From assembly GCF_000281045.1 (NCBI RefSeq), contig NW_008246127.1:57204-121203 (forward strand): 64,000 nt of DNA, given 5' to 3'. The stretch is from Saprolegnia diclina VS20. Lineage: Eukaryota; Oomycota; Saprolegniomycetes; Saprolegniales; Saprolegniaceae. A program made the position numbers and the translations under genes. Position 1 is the stretch's first letter. Each line of letters opens with the position of its first letter. Under the pieces are notes generated by a model. It was not told the DNA's origin. It worked only from the letters and a program-made list of their open reading frames with translations, and searched no databases. Positions 43,783 to 44,955 of this stretch are shown here, piece by piece.

Positions 43783-44955
43783 ATGCGCTTGACCGCCGAA
43801 GTGATCTTAAACGCCCGCGCCCACATCAACCCGCTCCGGGAGCGCGAGCTGGACCTCCGAGGTACATGCCTCCTCATGCTGCAGAGGCCTCAGCGCGCCT
43901 AGGCTACAAGATCCCTGTTATCGAGAGCCTCGGTGCGACCAAGGTACGCCGAGGATACATGGTAGCCGCGACGCACGAACGACGTAGGACGGCTTCGACT
44001 GCCTCGACTTCTCGGACAATGAAATCAAGAAGCTTGAGAACTTTCCTCGCCTGCGCCGCGTGCGCATGCTCCTCTTCCACAACAACAAGATTGCGCGCAT
44101 CCAGGAAAACCTGGTCGAGGCGCTCCCGAACCTCTCGGTGCTCCTCATGACCAACAACAGCCTCGCCAACCTCACAGACATTGACGCGCTCCGCTGCTTT
44201 GACAAGTTGGATATCCTTTCTACGCTTTGCGACCGCTTCCATCGTTCCACCAACTTTTTGGCTCCTTAACCACGTAGCACATACGTTGTCGTTGATCGGG
44301 AACCCCGTCACGCGCAAGTCGTACTACCGCGAGTACGTCATCCATACGCTTCCGCAGGTCCGCGTCCTCGACTTCAAGAAGATCCGGCCTGTCGAACGGA
44401 CAGAAGCCGCCCGGCTATTCAATTCGCTCGCCGGCAAGAAGATTGCGGATGGCGAGGCGGCGCCAGAGCCGACACCTTCGTCGTCAGAGCCGATGCCTTC
44501 GTCGCCGCCGCGCCCCTCCGTCACGGAGCTTCAAGTACGCCGCTTGCATCTTTTGTCTATTGGAGACGCGGTCCCATGCACGCGTTGTCTCTTAGGCGGC
44601 CATCGTGAACGCGACCTCGCTCGCCGAAGTCGAGCGCTTGGAGGAACAAGTGAAGGAAGCGCTGTCGCCTCCGCCGGCGTCGCCGCCCCACGAAACGGCC
44701 CCGTCGCCCAAGAAGACGCCGTCGCCGAAGCGTGAGGTCGTCGCGTCCCCGAAGCGCGAAGTCGCATCGCCGCCCAAGGTGGCGTCGCCCAAGAAGTCGC
44801 CCGCCCCGTCCAAGGCCGTTGGCGGCTCGGTGGCGTCGATGAAGGTCACGGAGCTCAAGGAAGAGCTGAAGAAGCGGGGCCTCTCGTTCAAGGGCCTGAA
44901 AGCGGAGCTCGTCGCGCGTCTCGAGGAGAGCATGGCGCACGACATGGAAATGTAA
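43783..44955 (+). CDS. SNRPA1: U2 snRNP protein A' with C-terminal SAP domain
   Basis: Five exons: 43783-43861, 43903-43943, 43988-44210, 44281-44534 and 44596-44955; 318 residues. It closely follows U2A': RLTAEVILNARAHINPLRERELDLRGYKIPVIESLGAT, FDCLDFSDNEIKKLENFP, LLMTNNSLANL, GNPVTRKSYYREYVIHTLPQVRVLDFKKI and NATSLAEVERL. U2A' is an LRR protein that with U2B'' binds U2 snRNA stem-loop IV in the spliceosome. After a Ser/Pro/Lys-rich linker, residues about 280-310 (MKVTELKEELKKRGLSFKGL) form a SAP motif, not part of the animal protein. The third intron is of U12 type. Confidence 0.95.
44211..44280 (+). other. Candidate U12-type AT-AC intron
   Basis: The 70-nt intron starts ATATCCTTTC, the U12 donor consensus. 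A U12 branch site TCCTTAAC lies near its 3' end, the branch A about 11 nt before the terminal AC. Removing it restores KLDTLSLIGNPV with the exact length of the corresponding U2A' segment. A GT-AG alternative (44244-44275) is shorter than normal and inserts extra residues. Confidence 0.8.

Follow-up and report, generated by a model that had tools for sequence, protein, structure and literature searches.

The question raised by this locus is whether the Saprolegnia diclina VS20 gene for U2A' (SNRPA1), a core protein of the major spliceosome, is interrupted by a minor, U12-type AT-AC intron, and whether such an intron would place one spliceosome under the control of the other. The first-pass annotation of the window (the whole analyzed stretch of 64 kb) had proposed the former and suggested the latter. 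Minor introns have been reported in Saprolegnia, with dozens per genome (Larue and Roy, 2023; PMC10639083). These, together with those of Phytophthora (PMC10639083; Bartschat and Samuelsson, 2010, PMC2846911), are of the same kind and come from the same or a related group; the intron considered here thus belongs to a known kind. U2A' is not mentioned as a minor-intron host in the parts of the literature surveyed, supplements aside, and SNRPA1 appears in the portions of PMC10639083 consulted as an expression marker only.

Structure of the U2A' gene

The U2A' gene extends over 43783-44955 of the forward strand and is modeled with five coding exons (43783-43861, 43903-43943, 43988-44210, 44281-44534, and 44596-44955). 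They encode a protein of 318 amino acids with an LRR_9 domain and, in exon 5, a C-terminal SAP domain. Introns 1 (43862-43902, 41 nt), 2 (43944-43987, 44 nt), and 4 (44535-44595, 61 nt) are of the GT-AG type. Intron 3 (44211-44280, 70 nt) follows an exon that ends in phase 1, and its sequence motifs place it in the U12-type AT-AC class. It had been described as longer than nearly all other introns of the window, which holds within the U2A' gene, the gene for which the comparison was made.

The protein reached 221.2 bits with LRR_9 in Pfam, and its closest solved structure in a PDB comparison was human U2A' (E 2e-61), with an alignment free of gaps over the intron 3 junction. The top match among those listed was the Saprolegnia parasitica protein SPRG_12513 (96% identity, several positions differing), and the database protein of S. 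parasitica shows an identical spliced junction. The earlier statement that removal of the intron restores the exact conserved length is correct for the leucine-rich repeat part; the whole protein has 318 residues and ends in an extension that carries the SAP domain. The same pair of LRR_9 and SAP domains was seen, among the matches listed, in other oomycete entries and in an Ectocarpus entry; the vertebrate entries listed had no SAP domain.

Splice site motifs and competing intervals

Direct reading of 44211-44280 on the forward strand gave ATATCCTTTC...TCCTTAAC CACGTAGCAC, ending with C at 44280, and bore out the donor, the branch site, and the AC at 11 nt that had been claimed. The donor (44211-44220) matches the 5' splice site RTATCCTT, and the branch site (44263-44270; branch A at 44269 by consensus) is close to TTCCTTRAC. 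The terminal AC forming the 3' splice site (44279-44280) lies 11 nt from the branch A, and the branch site is followed by CACGTAGCAC alone, without a pyrimidine tract. When the window was searched with the pattern ATATCCTTN{25,55}CCTTRAC, a single match was found, and none of 100 dinucleotide shuffles contained any. Removal of 44211-44280 as an AT-AC intron preserves the reading frame, with the intron in phase 1.

A different reading would have the major spliceosome remove another GT-AG or GC-AG interval, the U12 motifs being accidental. All in-frame GT-AG, GC-AG, and AT-AC intervals were enumerated between 44180 and 44318, giving 16: the called one, eight other AT-AC, six GC-AG, and one GT-AG interval. 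Such alternatives do exist, and some Aphanomyces gene models resemble GT-AG or GC-AG solutions of this sort; however, only 44211-44280 left the conserved protein without lost or added residues. The GT-AG splice from 44244, named beforehand as the outcome that would speak against the call, would remove 44244-44277 (34 nt) and keep the frame; its donor, however, is GTTCCACCAA, and it would introduce residues that the homologues with a clean junction lack. The remaining 14 alternatives in frame leave missing or extra residues. Given this and the absence of the U12 motif pair from the shuffles, we regard removal of another interval by the major spliceosome as extremely improbable.

Minor spliceosome components encoded in the genome

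The genome (54.15 Mb, 169 contigs) was searched along with 14 control genomes, and all four minor snRNAs were recovered above their Rfam gathering scores, each with one match: U12 (64.6 bits, gathering score 53), U6atac (84.7, 33), U11 (59.9, 39), and U4atac, which barely passed (53.6, 53). Since 42 of 241 candidates were scored for U12, 46 of 557 for U6atac, 48 of 364 for U4atac, and 39 of 1085 for U11, these figures stand for at least one copy of each. None of the control genomes exceeded the cut-off for any of the four; at a loose E of 1, matches appeared in 3, 8, 1, and 1 of the 14 (U12, U6atac, U4atac, and U11, respectively). U4atac and U6atac are strongly complementary, with a predicted duplex of -46.1 kcal/mol, a figure given without a shuffled baseline. 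In the flanks of the U4atac and U11 loci (L012 and L013), CGTTCGCCATGTAG was noticed by eye about 60 bases upstream, at a nearly equal distance in both; it is perhaps an snRNA promoter element.

The search for minor spliceosome proteins covered 65K, 48K, and 59K. Two exons at locus L061, the second-ranked genome match to the 65K query, had RNA-binding protein 40, which we take to be U11/U12-65K, as their best PDB match, the first exon with E 1.9e-6 against 0.0014 for U1A; a 28-residue piece upstream in the same locus gave no PDB match. The top genome match to the 65K query, at L060, had U1A and U2B'' as its best PDB matches and was rejected as 65K, being of the U1A/U2B'' type. The single genome match to the 48K-type zinc finger PF05253, a profile that also passed the cut-off in one control genome, was rejected as proof of 48K: its surroundings, for which Pfam gave PF05253 only, are presumably more like TRM13 than 48K. 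The 59K profile PF16021 matched neither this genome nor any control and is thus uninformative. The four snRNAs together with the 65K exons speak against the notion, raised at the outset as a possible objection, that the species lacks minor spliceosome components.

The motifs, the preserved frame, the gap-free alignment to human U2A' at the junction, the minor snRNAs, and the 65K exons thus agree, and on these sequence grounds 44211-44280 is very probably a U12-type (minor) AT-AC spliceosomal intron within the U2A' gene, as first proposed; we put the probability at about 0.94. In the transcript, U11 would pair with the donor of intron 3 and U12 with its branch site, the U4atac/U6atac.U5 particle would join after them, and cuts after positions 44210 and 44280 would allow the exons to be joined in phase 1. 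We infer both this route and the order of the steps, the latter being the established one for the minor spliceosome.

Candidate minor introns elsewhere in the genome

Across the genome, the pattern ATATCCTTN{25,55}CCTTRAC occurred at 28 places and its GT counterpart, GTATCCTTN{25,55}CCTTRAC, at 2, with no match to either in the backwards control. An earlier pattern, TATCCTTTN{28,58}TCCTTRAC, had yielded 15 places (control 0), 14 of them preceded by A and 1 by G. These counts cover strict motifs in a restricted length range and are not a total; GT introns with weaker motifs escape them. An AC was present 7-23 nt beyond the branch A in 26 of the 28 AT matches, which is weak evidence alone because such an AC is common by chance. 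The other two (L034 and L042) lacked a suitably placed AC and were set aside as probable accidents in coding sequence.

The 26 AT candidates to which a 3' end was assigned measure 63-81 nt within the searched length range (median 71), and the distance from branch to end is 10-17 (median 12). Phase 0 is the commonest (11, 8, and 7 introns in phases 0, 1, and 2), and the last three bases are TAC in 18, CAC in 7, and AAC in 1. For L033, L035, and L044, the second-ranked 3' end was chosen, on the basis of a kinesin motif in L033 and of spacing or preference by eye in the others. These candidates resemble known U12-type AT-AC introns in having the donor ATATCCTT, CCTTRAC 10-17 nt from the end, and minor snRNAs in the same genome. 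They differ in the branch site, which reads CCTTGAC in 24 of the 26 and CCTTAAC in two, the U2A' intron among them.

Among the peptides of the other 25 AT candidates, 15 received Pfam names at E ≤0.01. Seven were above the curated cut-off (kinesin, class II tRNA synthetase, enkurin, KTI12, ELMO, HIT zinc finger, and ubiquitin hydrolase), and all seven matches span the joined junction, which supports the AT candidates as a set of real introns. The remaining eight names did not reach that cut-off, and for three (LRR_6, Helicase_C, and WW) the match does not span the junction. Coding scores, taken as the best of several frames and without a formal null, were negative for L040 (AT) and for L058, one of the two GT matches.

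The strict set (loci L029-L058) comprises 28 AT against 2 GT matches, counting the two AT matches that lack a fitting AC. This share is far from that in human, where about 26% of minor introns are AT-AC, and above the 77% (196 of 253) in Blastocystis (PMC10639083). The Blastocystis introns are likewise rich in AT-AC and often in phase 0 (49%), but their mean length is just under 42 nt, in contrast to the median of 71 nt found here in the searched length range. No AT-AC share for Saprolegnia is given in the consulted portions of PMC10639083 and PMC2846911, supplements aside. A nearly AT-only strict set is relevant to the question of why AT-AC minor introns persist in some lineages that lose the GT-AG ones.

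A divergent U6atac

The U6atac above the cut-off (L010:1501-1618, minus strand; G000:C21:605691-605808) reads AACCGAGAGACGG in place of the AAAGGAGAGAAGG of the Rfam consensus, its 5' block carrying three changes, A13C, G14C, and A21C, when counted from the first base. In the usual register against ATATCCTTTC, donor positions +4, +5, and +8 to +10 pair, whereas A13C and G14C leave +6 and +7 unpaired. The continuous pairing with donor positions +4 to +8 is thus missing from the only U6atac above the cut-off, and the mismatch at +6 and +7 is a trait of the splicing machine rather than of intron 3. The predicted U6atac-donor duplex amounts to -4.1 kcal/mol and is out of register, compared to -8.2 for human; the U11 of this genome pairs with the donor at a predicted -7.3 kcal/mol.

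A degenerate U6atac copy beside a tRNA gene (L011:1501-1591; 29 against a cut-off of 33) also keeps AACCGAG, and its occurrence in both copies speaks against a base-call error. The canonical block AAAGGAGAGAAGGTTAGCA was not found anywhere in the genome within 2 mismatches; at ≤3 mismatches there were two places, both with 3, namely the U6atac and an unrelated one, and the backwards control gave 8. At the fourth base of the U12 snRNA (L009:1501-1654, minus strand), C is replaced by G; this base belongs to the region pairing with U6atac, which is itself changed at position 21. For the duplex of U12 and U6atac, a value of -5.5 is predicted in human and here alike, although here the duplex lies in a different register.

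In human cells, U6atac bases 14 and 15 pair with donor C5 and C6, the GG14/15CC change suppresses CC5/6GG, and mutations of donor and U6atac at adjacent pairs require matching changes (PMC4980772). U12-type splicing still proceeds with a U6atac into which the functional domain of U6 has been placed (PMC3584512), so that weaker pairing between U6atac and donor is possibly tolerated. Either the assembly or the search has missed the true U6atac, or weaker pairing by U6atac is tolerated in this lineage. The U6atac change is the main result at odds with a plain textbook reading, and together with the dominance of AT-AC it is more surprising than the U2A' intron itself.

The poor pairing would also suit a reading in which intron 3 is an AT-AC intron removed by the major spliceosome, AT-AC ends being found outside U12-type introns as well (PMC3584512). 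The full U12 donor and branch consensus, the lack of a pyrimidine tract between branch site and 3' end, and the presence of minor spliceosome genes in the genome oppose this U2-dependent reading, which we judge very improbable, if slightly less so than the removal of a different interval. For the U12-type reading, a tentative extension, which we hold as a whole to be possible but rather doubtful, is that the Saprolegnia minor spliceosome may have been rewired. In this proposal, U6atac would act without pairing at +6 and +7, U12 and U6atac would have changed together in helix I, the donor would be chosen mainly by U11 and proteins, AT-AC introns would have gone to near-total fixation, and the U2A' intron would be a survivor. 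No altered U6atac from oomycetes or stramenopiles appeared in the literature surveyed, as far as titles and abstracts tell. A natural U6atac with the base-14 change of the human suppressor tests offers a handle on how much donor pairing is needed.

Distribution of the intron among oomycetes

From 495 homologues found, 60 of the 120 among the matches listed were aligned. The junction was broken in 9 of the 11 Saprolegniales entries and in none of the 27 other named oomycete entries among these 60, entries of one species not being independent. By species, it was broken in four of six Saprolegniales (Thraustotheca clavata, Aphanomyces euteiches, A. astaci, and A. invadans) and clean in S. parasitica and A. 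stellatus. The broken models are P0003-P0010 and P0045. In four of them (one from T. clavata and three from A. astaci), LDIL precedes an F or S, which corresponds to a read-through of GAT ATC CTT T.., as in unspliced GATATCCTTT... In our view, the broken models are probably traces left by gene prediction programs unable to deal with AT-AC introns, and intron 3 would thereby account for the shared breakpoint in 9 of 11 Saprolegniales U2A' models. At the protein level, the contrast of 9 of 11 with 0 of 27 suggests that the intron is probably common to the order Saprolegniales and old there. The clean junction in 27 of 27 entries fits an absence of the intron outside the order, and correct splicing would look alike.

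Predicted dependence of U2A' on minor splicing

If intron 3 were retained, the frame would shift and translation would end after residue 133, so the output of U2A' would depend on minor splicing. Intron 3 might further be seen as a dedicated switch: acting through U2A', the minor spliceosome would determine how much of the major one is available. This idea draws on the early stop, on the seeming conservation of the intron in several Saprolegniales, and on a table in PMC3584512 that lists U2A' with the U2 snRNP and not with U11/U12. The known feedback on the genes for U11-48K and 65K (USSE) is likewise a case of the minor spliceosome controlling a splicing gene, but it relies on U12 5' splice sites arranged in tandem close to an alternative U2 3' site (PMC3584512), whereas U2A' has one donor. 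Exact TATCCTT occurs twice in the window, in intron 3 and about 31 kb away, and there is thus no tandem U12 donor at U2A' and no USSE arrangement.

Furthermore, among the 17 host genes with Pfam names (16 AT and 1 GT), no clear spliceosome subunit other than U2A' was recognized; a DEAD-box-type helicase fragment, with Helicase_C below the cut-off, is the host at L045. An early stop upon retention is not peculiar to U2A', and the 27 named oomycete entries from outside the Saprolegniales, clean at the junction (as correct splicing would also leave them), speak against such a switch as well. We therefore consider a dedicated switch unlikely, though less remote than the two alternative splicing routes weighed above, and the suggested cross-regulation of the spliceosomes is not supported. 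As judged from the gene model, production of the U2A' protein would depend on minor splicing without a dedicated regulatory circuit, a dependence common to any minor intron whose retention shifts the frame. A core protein of the major spliceosome would thus have been made dependent on minor splicing in these organisms.
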